This document shows, one piece after another, positions 36,192 to 47,299 of a DNA stretch of 64,000 nt; within the stretch, counting starts at the first letter, position 1; every line of letters starts with the position of its first letter. A program made the position numbers and the translations under genes. Under the pieces are notes generated by a model. The model worked only from the letters and a program-made list of their open reading frames with translations. It ran no database searches and was not told the DNA's origin. The DNA is from Pricia mediterranea (lineage in GTDB: Bacteria; Bacteroidota; Bacteroidia; Flavobacteriales; Flavobacteriaceae): positions 3,408,501-3,472,500 of the forward strand of contig NZ_JAVTTP010000001.1 in NCBI RefSeq assembly GCF_032248455.1. The letters run 5' to 3'.

Positions 36192-36881
36192 TCAATGCGC
36201 CTCTTCCTTTAAGTAGTCGGAAAAGTTCGCCTTAAATCGGTTTAACCTCGGGACGGAAACGTTCGTTATGTACGAGTTGTTGGGGTTCTTACGTTCGTAG
36301 TCTTGGTGATAGTCCTCCGCCTCGTAGAATTTACTCAAAGCGGTCACCTCCGTGGTAATAGGTTCCCCCTGATAAACCTTTTGTTCTTTCAGGGCCTTGA
36401 TGTATCCCTCGATAATTTCCTTTTCGCGATCGTTTTGGTAGAATGCGATGGATCTATATTGTGGTCCTCGATCCGGCCCCTGCCGATTGAGGGTGGTCGG
36501 ATCGTGCGAACCGAAGAAAACCTGAACCAACGCGGTAAAGGAGATGACCTCAGGATCGTAATATACCTTGACCGCTTCGGCGTGATCCGTGCGACCACCG
36601 GCCACCTGTTCGTAGGTGGGATTTGCCTGGGAGCCCCCGGCGTAGCCTGAAACGACTTCCTTGACTCCTTTTACACTTTCAAAAATAGCTTCTACACACC
36701 AGAAACAGCCGCTCGCGAAATAAGCGGTCTCTAACTTATCCAATTCCTGGGCGGTGGGATTTTGGATGTGATTGGCCGTGTCCTTTTCCGAAGAAGCGGC
36801 TTTGTTTTTTTTGGGACTGGATTGGCAGGAATAGGTCAGCGCCAAAGCAAGAACTAATATCGTATTTCCGAATATTTTCAT
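36192..36881 (-). CDS. msrA: Peptide-methionine (S)-S-oxide reductase, lipoprotein
   Basis: Repairs oxidised methionine (S epimer) in envelope proteins. A signal peptide with lipobox (TYSC, about residue 19) puts the enzyme in the periplasm. The catalytic cysteine is in YFASGCFWCVEAIFESVKGV (broken after the first Cys here for reference), followed by GYAGG and the NPTYEQV..GRTDHAEAV and FFGSHDPTTLNRQGPDRGPQYRS segments. The 229 residues are a single MsrA domain without a fused MsrB. It is convergent with ohr, another oxidative-stress gene. Confidence 0.94.
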   Translation of the reverse strand: MKIFGNTILVLALALTYSCQSSPKKNKAASSEKDTANHIQNPTAQELDKLETAYFASGCFWCVEAIFESVKGVKEVVSGYAGGSQANPTYEQVAGGRTDHAEAVKVYYDPEVISFTALVQVFFGSHDPTTLNRQGPDRGPQYRSIAFYQNDREKEIIEGYIKALKEQKVYQGEPITTEVTALSKFYEAEDYHQDYERKNPNNSYITNVSVPRLNRFKANFSDYLKEEAH

Positions 36882-38803: not shown

Positions 38804-39061
38804 ATGAGATGCATCTTGACTTTGGTAACCTTAACGGTATTTAGTTTTAACGTAACCGCCATGGTCGACCCGGCACAAGAGAACAATCGCAACAACCAAA
38901 CCGATGAACGAATCTTCAAACGGCCCGTTGTGTCCACTTCATTTGATAGAATTTCGCCTACCGCAAGTACCGGAACCACCATCCTTTATAAAATGAGGGA
39001 TAATATTATCCGCCGGGAGCTTTCTTTTACCTTAGGAAAAAAATGGATGAAATGGGCGTAA
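38804..39061 (+). CDS. Small secreted protein, LYK/RVKK C-terminal family (member 1)
   Basis: An 85-residue protein with a signal peptide (MRCILTLVTLTVFSFNVTA) and a variable Asn/Thr/Ser-rich middle. The last 25 residues, from LYKMRDNIIRRELSF to the final WA, line up without gaps with the ends of the proteins at 43553 and 44331. The ATG at 38804 is preferred over a TTG nine bases earlier because it starts directly at the hydrophobic segment. No cysteines remain after the signal. It is convergent with tesA. The function is unknown. Confidence 0.72.
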   Translation: MRCILTLVTLTVFSFNVTAMVDPAQENNRNNQTDERIFKRPVVSTSFDRISPTASTGTTILYKMRDNIIRRELSFTLGKKWMKWA

Positions 39062-39108: not shown

Positions 39109-39819
39109 TTACTGTAATAATACCCTTTCTTCTTGAATGACGTCCTTTAAAACCTCCCAAACATTGTCCCTTACTATTTTTTGTCCCGCTGCAGTAGGGT
39201 GGATGCCATCGTCTTGATTGAGATCGGGACGCCCGGCTACCCCTTCCAATAAAAACGGAATTAACGGGATGTCGTTCTTTTTTGCCAGCTCGGGAAAAAT
39301 CTGTCGAAAATCATCGGTATATTGTTGACCCATGTTCGGAGGGATCTGCATACCCGCCAGTATAATCTCCGTATCGGGATTTTTGAGTCGTACTTTATCG
39401 ATGATGGCCTGCAGGTTGTTTCTGGTTTCCGTAATGGGAATACCGCGGAGCCCGTCGTTAGCCCCCAGCTCCAAAACAAAAATATCCACATCTTGGTTCA
39501 GTACCCAATCCAACCGGTTGAGTCCCCCCGAAGTGGTTTCCCCGCTCAGGCCGGAATTGATGGCGACGTAGTTTAGGCCCAGGGAATCCAACCGGTTCTG
39601 TATCAAGGCCGGAAACGCTTCTTCGGTATCGAGCCCATACCCCGCCGTGAGGCTATTGCCATAGAAAAGAATGGTTTTTTCTTCTGATGTTATAGCGGCC
39701 CTAGTGACGGCGTCGGGGGTTCGGGCGGGTTTCGGTTCAGTATTCTTTTTCGGGCCTTCCCCGCAGGAGAAGATCAAGAGCACAATTAAAATATAACGAA
39801 ACTTTAAGATGTTCTGCAT
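39109..39819 (-). CDS. tesA: TesA-like SGNH arylesterase/lysophospholipase, lipoprotein
   Basis: A 236-residue SGNH hydrolase of the TesA (thioesterase I/lysophospholipase L1) group. The lipobox is FSC at about residue 19. Block I is FYGNSLTAGYGL (nucleophilic Ser), block II SGLSGETTSGG, block III LELGANDGLRG (Asn), block V DDGIHPTAAGQ (Asp/His). It is divergent from ybbA-ybbP; the same three genes are neighbours in E. coli, so the arrangement is ancient and suggests a shared task in lipid or lipoprotein handling. Confidence 0.92.
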   Translation of the reverse strand: MQNILKFRYILIVLLIFSCGEGPKKNTEPKPARTPDAVTRAAITSEEKTILFYGNSLTAGYGLDTEEAFPALIQNRLDSLGLNYVAINSGLSGETTSGGLNRLDWVLNQDVDIFVLELGANDGLRGIPITETRNNLQAIIDKVRLKNPDTEIILAGMQIPPNMGQQYTDDFRQIFPELAKKNDIPLIPFLLEGVAGRPDLNQDDGIHPTAAGQKIVRDNVWEVLKDVIQEERVLLQ

Positions 39820-39910
39820 AGTTGTAAGGTCTTAGAATAGGAATCATTTGCCTATTTTTCCGTCTCCGTAAACCTAACAACCGGCGGGCACAAAAAAATC
39901 ACGCAATTTT

Positions 39911-40600
39911 ATGGCAAAGATATTAAACGTTAGCCATCTGACGAAGCGCTATATTAGTGGAACTAAAGAGCTGACGGTGCTAAATGATATTACCTTCGAT
40001 ATCGAAGAGGGGGAAACATTCGCTATTGTAGGCCCTTCCGGTAGCGGAAAGACTACGTTATTGGGACTCTGTGCCGGTCTTGACCGACCGGATGCCGGAT
40101 CGGTAGAGCTCTGCGGTACGGACCTGGCATCATTGAACGAAGACGAGCGCGCTGCGTTGCGCAACCGGGAGGTCGGCTTTATTTTTCAGAACTTTCAGCT
40201 GCTACCCACGCTGACCGCCCTTGAAAACGTAATCGTGCCCTTGGAATTACAGGGTTTTAAAAGTCCCACCCGGTCCGGACAGGACTTGCTGGACAAGGTA
40301 GGACTGGCGGACCGGTTCCATCATTACCCCTCCCAGCTTTCGGGGGGCGAACAGCAACGGGTGGCCTTGGCCAGGGCATTTTCAAGTAACCCTTCCATAT
40401 TATTCGCCGATGAGCCTACGGGGAATCTCGACGAGGAGACCGGCGAAAAGGTGGTGAAACTGCTGTTCGAACTGAACCAGGAGGCCGGTACCACCTTGGT
40501 CATTGTTTCCCACGACCTTGAACTGGCCCGGAGAAACCAGCGCATTCTCCGGTTGAAGGGCGGAAAAGTAATCGCTAACGAAAGTACGGTACCGCTGTGA
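39911..40600 (+). CDS. ybbA: ABC transporter ATP-binding protein YbbA
   Basis: A 229-residue ATPase of the LolD/MacB type. Walker A is GPSGSGKTT (about 40-48), the Q loop FIFQNFQLLPTLTALENV, signature LSGGEQQRVALARAF, Walker B ILFADEPTGNLDEETG and the switch His in VSHDLE. It powers the FtsX-type permease that follows; start and stop overlap (GTGA at 40597-40600). Confidence 0.94.
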   Translation: MAKILNVSHLTKRYISGTKELTVLNDITFDIEEGETFAIVGPSGSGKTTLLGLCAGLDRPDAGSVELCGTDLASLNEDERAALRNREVGFIFQNFQLLPTLTALENVIVPLELQGFKSPTRSGQDLLDKVGLADRFHHYPSQLSGGEQQRVALARAFSSNPSILFADEPTGNLDEETGEKVVKLLFELNQEAGTTLVIVSHDLELARRNQRILRLKGGKVIANESTVPL

Positions 40601-43152
40601 AAAACGACAAGGGCAATCCGACCAAGACCAATTTTAATTGGCTGCTCAAAATGGCGTGGCGTGACGGCAAGGCCAGTGGAACACGTCTGCTACTGTTCAT
40701 GGCCTCGATCATTCTGGGCATCGCCGCGGTGGTCTCCATCCAATCCTTCAGTGAAAATTTAAAGGACAATATCGCCCTTCAGTCAAAAGCCTTGATGGGG
40801 GCGGATTTTATCATCGACAGCAGGCAACCTCCCAATGAAAGGGTACTGCAGATTATCGATTCGCTGGGCGGTGCGGATGCCAAGAGCGTCGGATTTCCAT
40901 CCATGGCGGTCTTCCCCAAGACCCGAAATACCAAATTGGTCAACGTGAAGGGCATCGAAGGCGGTTTTCCTTTTTACGGGGAGCTTGAAACCGACCCGGT
41001 AACGGCAGCTACCGATTATCAACAGGCGGGAGAAGTCCTGGTCGATGCGACCCTGATGATGCAATTCGGACTCAGGCCGGGGGATTCCGTCTCGATCGGG
41101 GAAATAACCCTGCCTATTGCCGGCCGTTTGGTTTCCGCCCCGGGAAGCACGGGCGTATCGGCCTCGGTCGCGCCGCCTGTACTGATTCCCTACCGCTTTA
41201 TCGAGGCAACGGGACTTATACAGACCGGAAGCCGGATTCGATACGACTTTTATTTTGTGGCGGGACCGGGACAGGACCTAGAGGCGCTGGACGAAAAGGT
41301 AGATCCGTTGCTCGATGCCCAAAATGCGGACCTCGATACGCATACTTCTACCGGTGAGCGCTTGGGCCGCCGTTACGAAAACTTTGGCAAATTCCTGAAC
41401 CTCGTCGCCTTTATTGCCCTTTTGTTGGGCTGTGTGGGTATCGCCAGTTCCGTACATATCTATATTAAGGAGAAACTGCAGTCCGTCGCCGTACTCAAAT
41501 GCATCGGGGCCAGCCGCAAACAAAGTTTCTTGATCTACCTGATCCAGATTGCCGGCATGGGCCTGATCGGTGGCCTTATCGGTACCGGGGTCGGATTGCT
41601 CGTGCAACAATCCTTTCCCTTATTGCTTCAGGGCTTTTTGCCTTTTGAGGTCCAAATTACCTTGACCGTGGCCCCGATCATCATGGGGCTGTTACTCGGA
41701 GTGTTCATGTCGGTACTGTTCGCCCTCTCGCCCCTGTTGAGCACTTGGTACGTATCGCCGCTGCAGGTCTTGCGTATCCAGGAAAACGTACCCCGAAAGT
41801 CGAGGAGGGCCAATGTATTGATAATGTCCGCCATCCTCCTGTTCGTATTTCTATTTTCGTATTGGTTGGTCGACAGTTGGAAGTACGCGCTATCGTTCGC
41901 AGCAGGCATATTGGTGGTCTTTATGCTGTTGGGCGGGGTTGCCGATCTCTTTATGAAAGGGATAAAAAAATACTTCCCGACTTCGTGGGGCTTTACCGCC
42001 CGACAAAGTCTACTGAATCTTTTTCGGCCCAACAATCAGACCTTGGTCCTGATCCTGGCCATCGGGGTAGGTACGTTTCTCATCAGTACGCTGTATTTCT
42101 CCAAGGATATCCTACTGGCAAAAACGACCTTGGAAGCCAATGACGAAGCCCCCAACCTGATTTTGTTGGATGTGCAGACCGAACAACAGGAAGCCGCAGT
42201 TGCCCGCATTACCGAAAAGGGATTGCCCCTGCTGAACAACATTCCGATCGTTACCATGCGGATGCATAAAATAAAGGACCGTACGGTAAACGAGATTCGA
42301 TCGGATACCACTTCGACCATTAACGGATGGATATTGAACCACGAGTTTCGGGTCACCTACCGCGATTCGCTGATTGATTCCGAAAGCTTGGAAGCGGGAA
42401 ATTGGCCTGTGGAATCCCAGGGGGAAGGCGTCGTGCCGGTATCCCTCTCCGATAACGTGGCGCGTGACGCCGGGGTCGAAGTAGGGGATAGGCTTGTTTT
42501 CAACGTACAGGGCATGTTAATGGAAACCGAAGTGGCCAGTATCCGCGAGGTGGACTGGGGGCGGATGCAATTGAATTTCTCCGTACTCTTTCCGAGCGGT
42601 GTGCTGGAAGATGCCCCTCAATTCCGGGTTTTGACCACCTATACACCCAATGAAAGCACATCGGCCGGCCTGCAGCGGGAATTGGTACAGGAATTCCCGA
42701 CCGTGTCCATTTTAGATTTACGGCAACTGTTATCTGTTGTCGATGACATTCTGGATAAAATTTCGTGGGTCATCAACTTTATGGCCTTCTTCAGCATCCT
42801 GACCGGAATCATCGTGTTGATCGGTTCGGTACGCACCAGCAAGTATCAACGTATTAAGGAGAGTGTACTGCTTAGGACCTTAGGGGCGAAAAGTGGACAA
42901 ATCCTAAAGATTACCGCGTTGGAATATGGTTATCTAGGCATCTTGGGAAGCACTACAGGTGTGTTACTCTCCCTGATCGGGAGCCAGTTATTGGCCCTCT
43001 TCGTTTTTGAAACTGCCTTTGTGCCTTCGTGGGTGCCTTTATTGATCGTGCTTCCCGGTATTACGATGCTCGTGCTCGCCATCGGGCTGCTCAACAGCCG
43101 TGGAGTGCTGAACAGTCCACCTTTGGAAGTACTGCGAAAGGAAGGGGTATAG
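40597..43152 (+). CDS. ybbP: FtsX-type ABC transporter permease YbbP
   Basis: An 851-residue permease with a GTG start overlapping the ybbA stop. It has one N-terminal helix, a periplasmic domain (about 50-265), three helices with an FtsX domain (about 270-400), two extra helices in the middle, a second periplasmic domain (about 500-700) and a final FtsX triple helix (about 715-850). This duplicated layout is that of YbbP/LolC-like mechanotransmission exporters. With YbbA and the divergent TesA it probably works on lipids or lipophilic substrates. Confidence 0.92.
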   Translation: MKNDKGNPTKTNFNWLLKMAWRDGKASGTRLLLFMASIILGIAAVVSIQSFSENLKDNIALQSKALMGADFIIDSRQPPNERVLQIIDSLGGADAKSVGFPSMAVFPKTRNTKLVNVKGIEGGFPFYGELETDPVTAATDYQQAGEVLVDATLMMQFGLRPGDSVSIGEITLPIAGRLVSAPGSTGVSASVAPPVLIPYRFIEATGLIQTGSRIRYDFYFVAGPGQDLEALDEKVDPLLDAQNADLDTHTSTGERLGRRYENFGKFLNLVAFIALLLGCVGIASSVHIYIKEKLQSVAVLKCIGASRKQSFLIYLIQIAGMGLIGGLIGTGVGLLVQQSFPLLLQGFLPFEVQITLTVAPIIMGLLLGVFMSVLFALSPLLSTWYVSPLQVLRIQENVPRKSRRANVLIMSAILLFVFLFSYWLVDSWKYALSFAAGILVVFMLLGGVADLFMKGIKKYFPTSWGFTARQSLLNLFRPNNQTLVLILAIGVGTFLISTLYFSKDILLAKTTLEANDEAPNLILLDVQTEQQEAAVARITEKGLPLLNNIPIVTMRMHKIKDRTVNEIRSDTTSTINGWILNHEFRVTYRDSLIDSESLEAGNWPVESQGEGVVPVSLSDNVARDAGVEVGDRLVFNVQGMLMETEVASIREVDWGRMQLNFSVLFPSGVLEDAPQFRVLTTYTPNESTSAGLQRELVQEFPTVSILDLRQLLSVVDDILDKISWVINFMAFFSILTGIIVLIGSVRTSKYQRIKESVLLRTLGAKSGQILKITALEYGYLGILGSTTGVLLSLIGSQLLALFVFETAFVPSWVPLLIVLPGITMLVLAIGLLNSRGVLNSPPLEVLRKEGV

Positions 43153-43172: not shown

Positions 43173-43346
43173 TCAATCCCTCTTGATCAAGCCGACCCCC
43201 GAAAAAAAGAAAATAGCGCCCAAAACCCCGTAAACGATCAGCATCTTGGTCGTACCGGAATCATTGGAAAAGAGGATTGCTGTGTAAATAAGACCGCCGA
43301 TGCCAAGAACGGTGAGAATAGTGCCGAAAATTTTCTTTAAATCCAT
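43173..43346 (-). CDS. Small two-helix membrane protein
   Basis: A 57-residue protein starting MDLKKIFGTILTVLGIGGLIY, with two membrane helices separated by SNDSGTTKM and a short charged end (LIKRD). The ATG at 43346 was chosen because the 13 residues before it in the longer frame precede the conserved Lys-rich start. It is convergent with ybbP. Similar small proteins are, from memory, common in flavobacteria; the function is unknown. Confidence 0.7.
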   Translation of the reverse strand: MDLKKIFGTILTVLGIGGLIYTAILFSNDSGTTKMLIVYGVLGAIFFFSGVGLIKRD

Positions 43347-43468
43347 GGCGCCAAAAATAAGAAAAATCCCAATATCCCCCGACAAAATGCACGCTGTTTC
43401 GGTAACAGGTATTTCGACCTGAATCCGTTCAACGGCACTTTTAGACCCTTGGGCGGAAGTGCTGTCGA

Positions 43469-43552
43469 TTAACGAAAATCAAGTGTTCTTCAGCGACTTA
43501 CACCCCTGTCAAACAACATGTACCGCGTTCTATTTATATAAAAACGCAAGTC
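43469..43552 (+). promoter_or_regulatory. Upstream region shared by small secreted genes 2 and 3 (copy 1)
   Basis: The 84 bases before member 2 resemble the 86 bases before member 3 (44245-44330): TTAA.CGAAAA, GTTCTTCAGCG versus GGTTTTCAGCG, CGTTCTATTTATA versus CGTTATATTTATA, and AAACGCAA just before the ATG, at matching distances. TATTTATA may be a -7 element; the rest may bind a shared regulator. Confidence 0.55.
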
Positions 43553-43792
43553 ATGAAAACCATCGCTACTTTAATTATCGCTCTTTTTTTCGGAATTACC
43601 GCCCAAGCCAATACAGCCTCTAAAACAGTTAAAGTCGAAACTTTAGAAACCTCAGTTGTTAGCGAAATCAACATTGAAGAAAATGTTACGGAATTAACTA
43701 GCGAAATCGCCCGCTTGTACAAGCGAAGTAATACGCGGGTCAAAAAAGAACTTGGTTTTTACACCAAAGCGAACCGGGCCAAGATGGCGTAA
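43553..43792 (+). CDS. Small secreted protein, LYK/RVKK C-terminal family (member 2)
   Basis: A 79-residue protein with a signal peptide (MKTIATLIIALFFGITAQA), an acidic Val/Glu-rich middle of about 35 residues and the 25-residue C-terminus beginning LYKRSNTRVKKELGF and ending in MA. The mature part has no cysteine or aromatic-rich core, so it is probably not a stable fold by itself. It lies upstream of member 3 and near two membrane histidine kinases. The function is unknown. Confidence 0.78.
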   Translation: MKTIATLIIALFFGITAQANTASKTVKVETLETSVVSEINIEENVTELTSEIARLYKRSNTRVKKELGFYTKANRAKMA

Positions 43793-44330
43793 AAAGATTA
43801 CCGAGCACAGTTGGTTCCCCATTGAACTACTTAAAGTGAAATACTCAAATTATTTTAAGCTTCTACCTTTCAAAAAAAGCTTTTAGGCTTCCTTAGCCTT
43901 ACCATCACAACAATACCACCGCGCTCACCACAACGCCAGGTACTTTCTCTAACACACATCCAACTCTTGCACCAAAAGGCCATCGGCACTTTCCACGCCG
44001 ACCGCTTGCTCCACCGAGTCATTTTTTCCCTCTGACACTGACCCCTCTTTACACCGATATGATTTTCCCATTCAAATTTTTGGCGTCCCTTCAGTTGCCC
44101 GGGCTTTAGCTTGGGTCGATAACGAACAGTAGCCAACCGCTTTTCGGAACAAACATCCGTCTAAAGACATATTCCGTCGATGACCGGGGCAAATTGTACA
44201 ATGCGTTAATCGAATATTTTTACCGCTGGACGTCGTTTTTCCCCTTAATCGAAAAACATTGGTTTTCAGCGGGTAATCTCAAATTTCCAAGTTATTCCCC
44301 GTTATATTTATAGTATCTAAACGCAACGCC
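43793..44330. other. Intergenic region between small secreted genes 2 and 3
   Basis: About 540 bases. The first 100 are AT-rich; 43890-44120 is C-rich on this strand with short frames on the other strand that lack coding character (many Trp, Arg and Cys). The last 86 bases form the shared upstream region of member 3. No terminator is obvious. Confidence 0.45.
44245..44330 (+). promoter_or_regulatory. Upstream region shared by small secreted genes 2 and 3 (copy 2)
   Basis: This is the counterpart of 43469-43552: GAAAAACATTGGTTTTCAGCGG, cut here into GAAAAACATT and GGTTTTCAGCG, then CGTTATATTTATA and AAACGCAACGCC before the ATG. The similar spacing suggests common regulation or a gene duplication that included the promoter. 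Confidence 0.55.
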
Positions 44331-44585
44331 ATGAAATCTTTTCTAACCTTGATTCTAGTGCTAACCTTCGGAGCCTCGACTCAGGCAAATACGCAAACCT
44401 ATGTTAAAACTAACAGTATTGAAATGGGTTTTGTTTTGGATAATAGCGCTGACCATGCTGAATGTCCTTCGAAAATTGTGGTTAGCTCCGAAAGTGGGGT
44501 AGCCCGTTTGTATAAGTTTCAAAACGCCCGAGTAAAAAAAGCCCTTTCCTTCACTGCGAGACCTTCTAAGCAGCATTGGGCATGA
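44331..44585 (+). CDS. Small secreted protein, LYK/RVKK C-terminal family (member 3)
   Basis: An 84-residue protein with a signal peptide (MKSFLTLILVLTFGASTQA), a diverged middle and the 25-residue C-terminus beginning LYKFQNARVKKALSF and ending in HWA. The residue pair Ala-Arg directly before LYK is shared with member 2. Its stop lies 43 bases from the end of a convergent histidine kinase gene. The function is unknown. Confidence 0.78.
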   Translation: MKSFLTLILVLTFGASTQANTQTYVKTNSIEMGFVLDNSADHAECPSKIVVSSESGVARLYKFQNARVKKALSFTARPSKQHWA

Positions 44586-44627
44586 TTTTAAAATCGTAAA
44601 TACTACAAAACTGAAATCCTCGTCAGG

Positions 44628-45842
44628 CTACGATCTCATAGAACTATGGTTTCGTACCATTTTGAACGTAATGGTATAATGGGTGCCGTCTCTGGTAAAA
44701 TCACGGATAATGGTTCCCTGTAGCTGACGAACGAGGTTATGGATCAATTTTAGGCCCAAGGATTTTGAATTTTTGTGGGTAACCGATTCGGAAAAACCAA
44801 TACCATTATCTCCGATATACAAGATATATTCATCGGAATCGCCCTTCTGTAAATGAATGTAGATTTTCTTTTTGCTCCTCTCCTGTATGCCGAATTTAAG
44901 GGAATTGGTTATGCTCTCATTGATCAAAAGGCCAAGGGGAATGGCCGTGTCTATGTTCAGTTGTACCTCGGGGATATCGATTTCTAGGGTGATATCGTTT
45001 TTCGTATCCTTTACGGATTGTATCAAATGTTCTGCTAGTTCTTGAACATAGCTACGAAAATCAATGTTCGTAAGGTCTTGGCGCATGTATAGTTTTTTGT
45101 GTACCATGGCCATTGAAATGACCCGGTTCTGGCTGCTTTTTAAAAATCGCTGAACCTCTTGGTCCCCACTATTGCGCGATTGTAGGCTCAACAGGCTTGA
45201 AATGGTCTGTAGGTTATTTTTGACTCGGTGATGTACCTCTTTGATCAAGGTTCTCTTTTCGTTGATTTTTTCCTCAAGTTTACTTTTGGTCTTGTATAGA
45301 TCGTTGTGGGCGTGCAACAAGTTCTTCCCAAAAACGCCCCCGAGGAGATAAATTGAAAAAAGTACGCTGATCAGTGCGAATACGTTTCTTGATTTTTCTG
45401 GTATCACATTAACACCAAAATTAAAATCGGCGATACTTTGCAAATAAATTATAAGAATGATCAGCAGGCTGAGGTTGAGGTAAAGATTTCCGTAGGCTCG
45501 GGTAGTTACATAGCCAGCTACTATGACTAAAACCAAAACGAAAATAAAGGGACTGTTGATGCCTCCACTGTACAATGTTATAATACAGGCTCCGGTCAAG
45601 GTCATTATCGATACGATATTGTAGGTTAGGGCGAGACTGCGGTGGTAGTTATAGATTAAGACGTTGATGAGGTTCAAAATGCCGAACGTGAGGAATACGT
45701 ATGGAATGACGTGCTTAATATTCAATACGTAGAAACAAATTCCGGAAAATAGAAAGGAAAAAAGCGAACTGATGTAATGGATCTTTATTACCAGACGTGC
45801 CTTCTCCCGAAGACTTTCTTCCAGATGTAGATTCTTGGGCAT
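44628..45842 (-). CDS. Membrane sensor histidine kinase (HisKA_2/HWE-like), paralogue 1
   Basis: A 404-residue kinase with about six N-terminal membrane helices (residues 20-185, including SGGINSPFIFVLVLVIVAGY), a short coiled linker (LYKTKSKLEEKINEKRTL), the HisKA_2 dimerisation region with phospho-accepting His in KEVHHRVKNNLQTISSLL, and an HATPase_c domain: N box in LLINESITNSLKFG, G1 box in IGDNGIGF. There is no receiver domain or response regulator nearby. The input is membrane-embedded with no large periplasmic domain. It is about half identical to the kinase at 46085-47299 and convergent with the small secreted gene 3. Confidence 0.88.
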   Translation of the reverse strand: MPKNLHLEESLREKARLVIKIHYISSLFSFLFSGICFYVLNIKHVIPYVFLTFGILNLINVLIYNYHRSLALTYNIVSIMTLTGACIITLYSGGINSPFIFVLVLVIVAGYVTTRAYGNLYLNLSLLIILIIYLQSIADFNFGVNVIPEKSRNVFALISVLFSIYLLGGVFGKNLLHAHNDLYKTKSKLEEKINEKRTLIKEVHHRVKNNLQTISSLLSLQSRNSGDQEVQRFLKSSQNRVISMAMVHKKLYMRQDLTNIDFRSYVQELAEHLIQSVKDTKNDITLEIDIPEVQLNIDTAIPLGLLINESITNSLKFGIQERSKKKIYIHLQKGDSDEYILYIGDNGIGFSESVTHKNSKSLGLKLIHNLVRQLQGTIIRDFTRDGTHYTITFKMVRNHSSMRS

Positions 45843-46029
45843 AATGTTTTTTTTTGGTTCAAGAATACTATTAAAATGGTTTGCACTTTTAAAAATGTAC
45901 CCAAAGCCACCTGAATACCTCTATTCCGATTTGTTCTTTTTTCGACTGTTTTATAGTCGGTCGCATTACACATAGGGTAGGTTCTTCTACTACGACGAAA
46001 CCTGTTTTAGACACTAATTCTCTTAAGTA

Positions 46030-46076
46030 ACATGGCATCATCGCCATTGAGATCATTCGATTCGGCGTCCCTTTTA
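46030..46076 (-). pseudogene. Remnant of a third histidine kinase copy
   Basis: On the minus strand the segment encodes NRMISMAMM, matching NRVISMAMV of paralogue 1 and NRVASMAMI of paralogue 2 at the same place in the DHp domain. Base similarity to paralogue 1 extends over about 47 bases, including the flanking TTTTAAAAAT. The surrounding frame is broken. It suggests that a third tandem copy was once present between the two kinases. Confidence 0.4.
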
Positions 46077-46084
46077 AAAATAAT

Positions 46085-47299
46085 TTAGTCTCCGATAGTC
46101 CGATGCCTATCGACGTCCAAGAAAACAACTTGATAGTGCGTTCCTTGGTCCGAAGTCTTAAGTTGTACCGAACCTCTGAGTTGTCGGGCCAGATTATGGA
46201 TAAGTTTAAGTCCCAATGATTTTTTGTTCTTGTTCAGTTCAGGAGAAAAACCGATACCATCGTCCTTTATACTCAAAACATAGGCATTTTCAGCATCCCC
46301 TATTTTTAGGCTGATATCTATCTGACCGTTGGCATTGTCCAAAAAACCATACTTAAGAGAATTTGTCACCGCTTCGTTTATGAGAAGTCCCAGCGGAATT
46401 GCAGTGTCTATACAGAGGTGTACCTCGACCATATTCAAATTTATGCCGATATTTTTATCCTTATTGTCCGTGGAAGTGATGAGGTAGTTGGTCAACTCTT
46501 GCACATACGGGCGAAACTCGATTTTTGAAAGGTCATGACGAACGTAAAGCATTTCGTGAATCATTGCCATGGAGGCCACGCGGTTCTGACTGCTATTGAT
46601 CAATTCCCCGATTTTTTCATTGGTCGAGTTTTTCGCCTGTAGGTTCAATAGACTTGAAACGGTCTGTAAATTGTTTTTTACTCGGTGGTGCACTTCCCTG
46701 AGCAGCACTTCTTTTTCGGCAATACGACGTTCTAATTCCGCTTTGGATTTAACCAGGGCATCGTGGGACCGTACAAGGGACTTCCCAAAAACACCACCGA
46801 CAAGATATACGGCGAACAATAGGGATATAAGGCTGAAATGCGGTCGCGATTCGGCCGGCACTTCATTGACGATGAAAGGGATCTGGGCCTCACCTACGAT
46901 AAAAATTAAGAGTACGGCCAGCATTGCGGCGTTCAGATAAACGGTGCCAAAGATGCGGGCGCCCGCATAGCCTCCCAACACAATTACGCCCAGAATAAAG
47001 ATAAACGGACTGTTAATGCCTCCGCTAAAGAGTATAACGCTTATGGCAGCTAGAAGGGATATCACGCCGGACAGCAGGGCGGTAGCCTTTAGATTGCCGT
47101 GCTTCTTGAGAAGAGTGATGTTGGAGAGGTTCAGGAGACAATAGGAAAAGCATACCATCGGAACGACCCCGAGAATGCCTAAGGGATACAGGCAAAATAG
47201 TCCAAATATCGCCGTCAAGGCCGATGAGACGTAAACAAATCGATACATCAACCGGGTCTGGTCATCCGTTTTGTAAGGGATTTTAATCGATTTTGCCAT
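46085..47299 (-). CDS. Membrane sensor histidine kinase (HisKA_2/HWE-like), paralogue 2
   Basis: A 404-residue kinase built like paralogue 1: six membrane helices with the shared SGGINSPFIF motif, the phospho-accepting His in REVHHRVKNNLQTVSSLL, N box in LLINEAVTNSLKYG, and G1 box in IKDDGIGF. The ATG at 47299 is preferred to one 36 bases upstream because the extra residues are not shared with the paralogue. Two adjacent kinases of this type with no response regulator suggest they signal to a distant partner or sense related ligands. Confidence 0.88.
   Translation of the reverse strand: MAKSIKIPYKTDDQTRLMYRFVYVSSALTAIFGLFCLYPLGILGVVPMVCFSYCLLNLSNITLLKKHGNLKATALLSGVISLLAAISVILFSGGINSPFIFILGVIVLGGYAGARIFGTVYLNAAMLAVLLIFIVGEAQIPFIVNEVPAESRPHFSLISLLFAVYLVGGVFGKSLVRSHDALVKSKAELERRIAEKEVLLREVHHRVKNNLQTVSSLLNLQAKNSTNEKIGELINSSQNRVASMAMIHEMLYVRHDLSKIEFRPYVQELTNYLITSTDNKDKNIGINLNMVEVHLCIDTAIPLGLLINEAVTNSLKYGFLDNANGQIDISLKIGDAENAYVLSIKDDGIGFSPELNKNKKSLGLKLIHNLARQLRGSVQLKTSDQGTHYQVVFLDVDRHRTIGD

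Follow-up and report, generated by a model that had tools for sequence, protein, structure and literature searches.

A stretch of 64,000 nucleotides of the Pricia mediterranea genome (contig NZ_JAVTTP010000001.1, positions 3,408,501 to 3,472,500; hereafter, the window) contains three genes encoding related small secreted proteins (members 1 to 3) and two genes encoding paralogous sensor kinases (kinases 1 and 2), as described in an earlier sequence-only reading and confirmed by their open reading frames (ORFs) and by profile searches. The reading preferred here, held with slightly less than even confidence, is that they belong to a conserved module in which secreted effector peptides with dedicated promoters are tied to HisKA_2 kinases, and in which the kinases control the peptide genes; the kinases are the most likely sensory partner of the peptide. 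New are the layout of the peptide precursor, a promoter element shared by the peptide genes, kinases with two transmembrane (TM) segments that keep their peptides, and a phage-encoded peptide. The sequence-only reading, which proposed a peptide-sensing module with kinases of the AgrC/ComP type, is partly supported overall. The locus shows the following features:

43553..43789, + strand: member 2, small secreted protein of 79 amino acids (aa)
43709..43789, + strand: member 2, 27-residue cationic C-terminal segment ARLYKRSNTRVKKELGFYTKANRAKMA
43377..43552, + strand: member 2 promoter element, three half-site pairs CG[AG]TAAAnTG (model R1, E 4.8e-28)
44331..44582, + strand: member 3, small secreted protein of 84 aa
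44502..44582, + strand: member 3, 27-residue cationic C-terminal segment ARLYKFQNARVKKALSFTARPSKQHWA
44156..44326, + strand: member 3 promoter element (model R1, E 9.1e-18)
38804..39058, + strand: member 1, small secreted protein of 85 aa, C-terminus of type ILYKMKxNIIRRELSF
38978..39058, + strand: member 1, 27-residue cationic C-terminal segment
38665..38783, + strand: member 1 promoter element, partial (model R1, E 2.4e-8)
44631..45842, - strand: kinase 1, six-TM HisKA_2/HATPase_c sensor kinase of 404 aa
46088..47299, - strand: kinase 2, paralogue of kinase 1 (46% identical), 404 aa
47507..50872, - strand: secA, conserved flank of the kinases
39109..43152: tesA (- strand), ybbA and ybbP (+ strand), inserted between members 1 and 2, named by eye from the translations
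36192..36881, - strand: msrA, conserved far flank, named by eye

Member 3 and kinase 1 are convergent, as had been read, with a stop-to-stop distance of 42 bases and not 43, and member 1 ends 4.5 kb before member 2, the earlier estimate being 5 kb. In the whole genome (4.57 Mb in three contigs) the peptide profile picks out these three genes alone (E 8e-37 to 3e-39), the next match lying at E 0.11, and the kinase profile matches only kinases 1 and 2 at full length, five others being matched in the catalytic half only. Since three members in 4.6 Mb fall within 9 kb of the sole two such kinases, the arrangement is non-random. The position of member 1, between the msrA/malectin-like gene and tesA, is kept in stretches L060, L062 and L064. 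A gene encoding a 70-aa membrane protein (MDLKKIFGTILTVLGIGGLIYTAILF...) lies between ybbP and member 2 (43173-43385, - strand), with 88% identity over 56 residues in three congeners.

Peptides and kinases occur in the same genomes. In a first set of 60 relatives, nine show strong peptide matches (E 4.6e-14 or better) and the same nine show full-length kinases (E 1e-60 or better). The search of 397 Flavobacteriaceae genomes with profiles A3 (25 peptides) and A4 (17 kinases) found a peptide match at E 1e-3 in 103 genomes, 71 of them below 1e-8, and a kinase at E 1e-60 in 79. Genomes with a peptide E from 1e-8 to 1e-3 (32 of the 103) were treated as lacking the peptide, and the kinase matches of genomes G094, G231 and G377, with open frames of 641-693 aa and an unmatched N-terminal part, were removed. 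On this count 69 genomes contain both, two the peptide only (G083 and G228), seven the kinase only and 319 neither; by genus, the numbers are 41, one, four and 191. Thus, 69 of the 71 genomes with a strong peptide match also carry the kinase, the co-occurrence by which the sequence-only reading proposed to check the pairing. With all 79 kinase matches kept, the table is 69/2/10/316 (p 1e-63); p-values of co-occurrence ignore descent. The first-look filter scored 13 peptide and four kinase candidates per genome and, because these are few, genes may have been missed. Among 296 genomes of the phylum, nine show any peptide match at E 1e-3, and the five with strong matches all belong to Flavobacteriaceae. 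Kinase carriers, many with a peptide gene in the same stretch, belong to Maribacter, Arenibacter, Muricauda/Allomuricauda, Robiginitalea, Zeaxanthinibacter and Eudoraea.

The surroundings of the kinases were compared in stretches of up to 20 kb from 77 genomes, including the window. A peptide gene is found in the same stretch in 66 of the 77, always on the strand opposite to the kinase (66/66), at a median distance of 4.2 kb and at less than 1 kb in 23; the refuting outcome named in the sequence-only reading, small proteins lying mostly far from such kinases, was not seen. In G076 and G329, which show no peptide gene in the stretch, the kinase is on a short contig or at a contig end, and in G216 and G160 the peptide promoters are about 15-20 kb from the kinase. 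No peptide gene was found in the kinase-carrying genomes G404, G281, G248, G103, G313, G302 and G086, in which a search with the promoter element for hidden peptides was also unconvincing (best E 3.6e-5, partial, with no suitable ORF). The secA gene is present in 72 of the 77 stretches, on the same strand as the kinases in all 72 and with a kinase within 1 kb in 59; msrA is present in 48 and a relative of YbbP in 36. The tesA-ybbAP genes are present in about half of the loci, while kinases and peptides stay. Because secA, kinase(s), peptide(s) and msrA form an inherited block with internal turnover, adjacency by itself is modest evidence.

The peptide family was collected as 161 members from 68 genomes, of which 144 entered the comparison by region, after removal of members with E above 1e-15 or an odd length. 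The precursor shows a signal peptide (judged by eye), an acidic variable spacer of 22-40 residues (median 32, mean charge -3.2) and a fixed cationic C-terminus of exactly 27 residues in 140 of the 144, with a mean charge of +8.6. The basic/aromatic C-terminus seen in the sequence-only reading is thus confirmed and sharpened to a fixed 27-mer, which phages encode with little else added. The first 20 residues agree between genomes at a mean identity of 55%, the spacer at 28% and the C-terminus at 63%. The consensus of the 27-mer is ARLYKFKNSRVKKALSFTTKRNKAKLA, with key columns Y 98%, N 94%, L 97%, F 99%, T 95% and K 95% (141 sequences); cysteine is nearly missing (2/144 members). Codons vary freely at agreeing residues, so conservation acts on the protein. 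An AlphaFold model of the small protein shows a mean pLDDT of 60 and no confident fold, and the mature part is predicted to be unstructured. None of 25 members scanned exceeds a curated cut-off (best Pfam E 0.0085, best NCBIfam E 0.016), and phrog_26162 weakly matches 15 of the 25 (best E 3e-4). A plasmid search with one member as query gave no match, and no publication on the family was found in open-licence PubMed Central, subscription papers being outside that search. In Maribacter, a further peptide subtype (MKSIILLTALFF...NNRIIKALKFSTKLN) is found in L142:3500-4326, L146:3408-4286 and L136:2673-2924; it is on the same strand as the kinases and about 6-7 kb before them, unlike the counted in-locus members. 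Some genera contain, between kinase and peptides, a pair of genes resembling by eye a secreted zinc carboxypeptidase and an amidohydrolase (L069:8803-12937 and L070:6683-10804), a possible candidate for peptide processing.

Nearly all peptide genes share an upstream element of about 180 bp, whose consensus shows three pairs of half-sites centred on CG: one forward (CGATAAA..CA / CGATAAG.TG), one inverted (ACGTTTATCG / ACACTTTATC) and another forward (CCGAAAAAT / AGCGA), each 20-21 bp apart. In 158 upstream regions, 141 such pairs were counted, and 110 of them show a spacing of 21 or 20 bp. The sequence model was built from 54 elements, with the upstream regions of members 1 to 3 included. A search of 85 stretches with nhmmer at E 0.01 gave 176 matches: 160 at peptide genes, none at kinase genes, two strong orphans, of which one has a decayed secreted ORF of 70 aa, and 14 partial and weak ones, several of which are reverse-strand matches within the same promoters. 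Many genomes show extra peptide copies outside the locus, and the element also precedes such copies distant from kinases (L061, L063, L071 and L277). A possible inverted repeat just before the start codon has arms of at least 7 in 49 of 156 cases against 2% of shuffles, the chimera control being cut off-centre. In the genome of P. mediterranea the model finds members 2, 3 and 1, then a copy on contig 2 (12682-12840, - strand; L282:1501-1659) with E 6.4e-8, and the next match has E 0.036. The contig 2 copy lacks a peptide ORF, lies near a gene encoding a Gfo/Idh/MocA-like oxidoreductase and is probably the relic of a moved peptide copy. LytTR regulators use 9-bp repeats with a 12-bp spacer, which gives a period of 21 bp, according to the available text of PMC2766830. 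The element shows the direct repeats at this period that mark LytTR-controlled promoters. Only its inverted pair resembles, by eye, the LytTR half-site consensus, [TA][AC][CA]GTTN[AG][TG].

Both kinases show a HisKA_2 domain (kinase 1, E 5e-30, 103.9 bits; kinase 2, E 2e-27, 95.4 bits; cut-off, 22.3 bits) and HATPase_c, and the HisKA_2 motif VHHRVKNNLQ is invariant in 17 kinases. Residues 1-177 match no Pfam family even at E 10. The six membrane helices without a large periplasmic sensor that had been read in both hold for kinase 1, by hydropathy and in an AlphaFold model with six N-terminal helices; kinase 2 shows five segments by a simple hydropathy cut-off, yet it aligns with kinase 1 from end to end. 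This architecture, a TM bundle with short loops and no periplasmic domain, is that of intramembrane-sensing kinases. Foldseek with kinase 1 found kinase structures, with the catalytic half of EL346 as the best (4r39; sequence E 8e-19, Foldseek E 9e-10), and nothing specific for the TM part.

A tree of 98 catalytic domains, from which five outgroup kinases of G103, G313, G302 and G086 (a separate outgroup at another locus) were left out, contains 11 kinases of a two-TM form of about 290-306 aa, which keep TM1-TM2 and lack TM3-TM6. This form requires five changes on the tree, at least four of them forced by supported branches (in either direction), and 10 of the 11 two-TM kinase loci keep peptide genes. 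The four-helix part with the SGGINSPFIF helix, which the sequence-only reading took as the mark of the kinase subfamily, is thus dispensable for association with the peptide. In-locus kinases without peptide genes show long end branches (G404, 0.80; G281, 1.39; G248, 0.98; median, 0.14), as if constraint might have been relaxed. In G021 (L068:1152-2347) a decaying kinase paralogue, broken into two ORFs, lies next to an intact one.

Peptide homologues span three unrelated phage lineages and one metagenomic viral contig. Comparison of three members with 50,697 phage records by tblastn gave E below 0.01 only for the Maribacter phages Molly and Colly, whose identical 65-aa protein (Molly_1/Colly_1) has a signal peptide, followed by a short spacer and EVARLYKFKNSRIKKALNFETKK; neither of the two fetched Molly/Colly stretches showed the host promoter element. 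Weak tblastn matches (E 0.8 and 5) in Cellulophaga phages led to two further proteins: an unannotated 71-aa ORF of phiST and phi13:1, with a signal-peptide-like start and ending in RVYRRKYSRIRYELSFKVKTITKLC, and an annotated, leaderless 50-aa protein of phi38:1 and Calle, ending in STARVYKRKNSKVKDALSFKIRGKSKLA. With the family profile, E-values scaled to an estimated 20 million ORFs are 8.5e-13 (Molly/Colly), 0.0037 (phiST type) and 1.5e-5 (phi38:1 type). The corresponding bit scores are 58, 27 and 35; the best of 2000 shuffles of each protein reach 9.5-12.8 bits. Against the 27-mer profile alone, the phiST ORF falls short of significance (E 16). The metagenomic viral contig, of 42 kb, encodes a 37-aa protein with little beyond the 27-mer and no signal peptide. 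The available text of the phage paper PMC8776804 does not mention the peptide gene. The viral ORFs are:

L364:2122-2319; L365:2501-2698; L370:581-796; L369:629-781; L371:629-781; L375:2989-3102

The phages resemble phiCDHM1, with its agr genes, and those encoding the arbitrium peptide AimP in that they carry a peptide gene; quorum-sensing parts are phage-carried in both, and the phiCDHM1 peptide gene is homologous to that of the host (available text of PMC7790227). They differ in that only the peptide is found here, the receptor having been sought in the nearby annotations, and in that two phage types show a signal peptide and two do not.

AgrC is a six-TM kinase without an extracytoplasmic domain (available text of PMC8534201). 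As in AgrC/AgrD/AgrA and ComP/ComX, genes for short secreted peptides adjoin a kinase without an extracytoplasmic domain, with six TM segments in kinase 1 and five by hydropathy in kinase 2, and the promoter repeats show the 21-bp LytTR period. The likeness to AgrC/ComP is weakened by several differences, while the co-occurrence with a kinase stands. The kinases here belong to the HisKA_2 class and do not show the catalytic half of the HPK10 class, which has a GHKL/HATPase_c_5 catalytic half and no HisKA_2 (the HATPase_c_5 match is merely E 0.86, in kinase 2). Where those systems use a processed cyclic or lipidated peptide, the precursor here has a Sec signal peptide and a linear cationic 27-mer; no processing gene was recognised and no regulator lies beside the kinase; the genes are convergent, kinases without TM3-TM6 occur and the peptide is conserved across genera. 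The intramembrane-sensing kinases DesK, BceS and LiaS (concept in the available text of PMC8534201) also lack an extracytoplasmic sensor; two-TM forms occur among the relatives of kinases 1 and 2, and a YbbAP-type ABC transporter is present in the locus of the window. They differ in that the kinases here belong to the HisKA_2 class, the transporter is not found in 41 of the 77 kinase stretches and the peptide family goes with the locus type. The HisKA_2 blue-light kinases (EL346 and relatives) are similar in the catalytic half and differ by their LOV domain, which the kinases here lack; the latter show the six-TM N-terminus without a Pfam match.

The genome of P. mediterranea shows 17 LytTR matches, including at least three genes without a recognised kinase neighbour: two tandem regulators (L314:2307-3960, at 63.3-65.0 kb of the genome) and a third beside ribosomal-protein genes (L313:2588-3280). 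The tandem L314 and the L313 genes are candidate partners for the regulator-less kinases. Two HisKA_2 kinases of the same genome (L317 3347-5305 and L318 3145-5181), whose catalytic halves are similar to those of kinases 1 and 2, adjoin LytTR regulators, and the closest kinase to kinases 1 and 2 (L326) adjoins a single-domain receiver and a LuxR-like gene (names by eye).

In the preferred reading, each secA-to-msrA locus of one Flavobacteriaceae clade would combine one to several peptides with one to three membrane-embedded kinases. The kinases, without a sensory domain outside the membrane, would respond to a condition of the membrane or envelope and, by way of a response regulator encoded elsewhere and probably of the LytTR type, act on the 21-bp-spaced boxes to switch on the peptide genes. 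Once released, the 27-mer would serve, beyond the inner membrane, as a signal in its own right or as an agent active on the envelope; feedback on the kinases would be possible and not required, and action in trans on hosts would be the reason why phages carry the peptide. An autonomous effector peptide is favoured by its distribution, its dedicated promoter and the phage copies, and control of the peptide genes by the kinases is favoured because the TM part of the kinases varies while the promoter is highly conserved.

Several observations weigh against this reading. The kinase promoters lack the element; G228 and G083 contain peptides and promoter elements without a detected kinase; and kinase-only genomes exist. 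The kinases of G160 and G175 are also long-branched, though their peptides are kept. Leaderless phage versions misfit a purely extracellular action unless lysis releases them. The secA/msrA synteny is conserved as a block, and adjacency may be mere inheritance. No regulator gene is found in the locus (translations of 36-64 kb read by eye; 0/17 LytTR matches in the window), and the orphan LytTR gene L314:3247-3957, considered as the partner, shows E 1e-40 or better in 321 of the 397 genomes and does not track the system; because the gene is nearly family-wide, its co-occurrence cannot decide.

The alternative closest to the sequence-only reading is peptide autoinduction of the agr/com type in a Gram-negative phylum, in which the neighbouring kinases bind the secreted 27-mer as their ligand and, through a LytTR regulator, switch on the peptide genes; it is possible but on balance unlikely. 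It draws on the co-occurrence and co-localisation of peptide and kinase, on kinases without a periplasmic domain, on a LytTR-like box spacing as in agr/sil-type circuits (available texts of PMC2766830 and PMC4227749) and on the peptide-carrying phages, with the quorum-sensing parts on phages as precedent (available text of PMC7790227). It is opposed by the repeated absence of TM3-TM6 while peptides stay and by the peptides of G228 and G083 without a detected kinase. Pheromones usually diversify, and the peptide is unusually conserved between genera (63% identity in the C-terminus). Co-variation of kinase and peptide beyond species relatedness, expected from the sequence-only reading, is borderline and is not used as support: distance matrices of whole proteins from 49 loci, corrected with SecA, gave a partial Mantel r of 0.18-0.20 with p about 0.05, and in the 33 loci allowing a MsrA control p is 0.15, the kinase-MsrA control pair itself showing p 0.03. 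A signal-peptide-derived pheromone was also considered as a possible form, prompted by the 55% identity of the signal peptide between genomes.

Linkage by descent only, in which peptides and kinases share the inherited secA-msrA block without a functional tie, is improbable. The conserved secA and msrA flanks and the many genomes with extra peptide copies outside the locus are in keeping with it. So is the look of the carriers, which resemble one clade because an unrelated marker, the orphan LytTR gene, scores best in them; since much of the co-occurrence is one locus inherited by one clade, it is weaker than its p-value suggests. Against descent alone, the association persists within the clade, which was delimited post hoc and by eye at a best E of 1e-80 or better for the orphan LytTR gene, with a table of 69/2/5/7 and p 6e-6; kinases and peptides are retained as the genes between them come and go, and peptide and kinase are jointly missing from most other genomes.

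A fuller version of the signalling idea is a little less probable again: 27-mers would be sensed via HisKA_2 kinases, for which TM1-TM2 would be enough, with LytTR autoinduction through six 21-bp-spaced boxes, and the signal would also be carried by at least three unrelated Maribacter/Cellulophaga phage lineages, some of them releasing it by lysis, to steer or warn neighbours.

It is doubtful that the 27-mer is a cationic membrane-active agent of competition, used by phages for lysis or exclusion of rivals. A signal peptide, an acidic spacer and a strongly basic C-terminus are the general layout of many antimicrobial precursors, and the mean charge, the tandem near-identical copies and the phage copies, some leaderless and hence released only at lysis, agree with such a role. 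By eye, however, the loci that were read showed no recognisable gene for immunity or processing; conservation per position between genera exceeds what charge alone needs, and the near-invariance of Y, N, L and F points to a specific partner. Secretion-monitoring arrest peptides similar to SecM/VemP, suggested by the signal peptide, the conserved extreme C-terminus and the proximity of secA, are very improbable, since such peptides control, in cis, a downstream gene transcribed together with their own, and gene direction contradicts this (peptides opposite to the kinases in 66/66 and kinases on the secA strand in 72/72).

Peptide-kinase signalling circuits are best known from Gram-positive bacteria, and the peptides described here may belong to an unrecognised signalling or defence system of marine bacteria. 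A conserved peptide family that has its own promoter code, is linked to kinases in marine Flavobacteriaceae of about 40 genera and has been taken up by their phages would offer a tractable system for study. The carriers come from a group that matters for polysaccharide degradation, and the system would allow a direct approach to the question why a host peptide is found in lytic phages. Should the link to the kinases fall, a 27-mer family without a Pfam or NCBIfam entry would still be there, and its occurrence in phages needs explaining.

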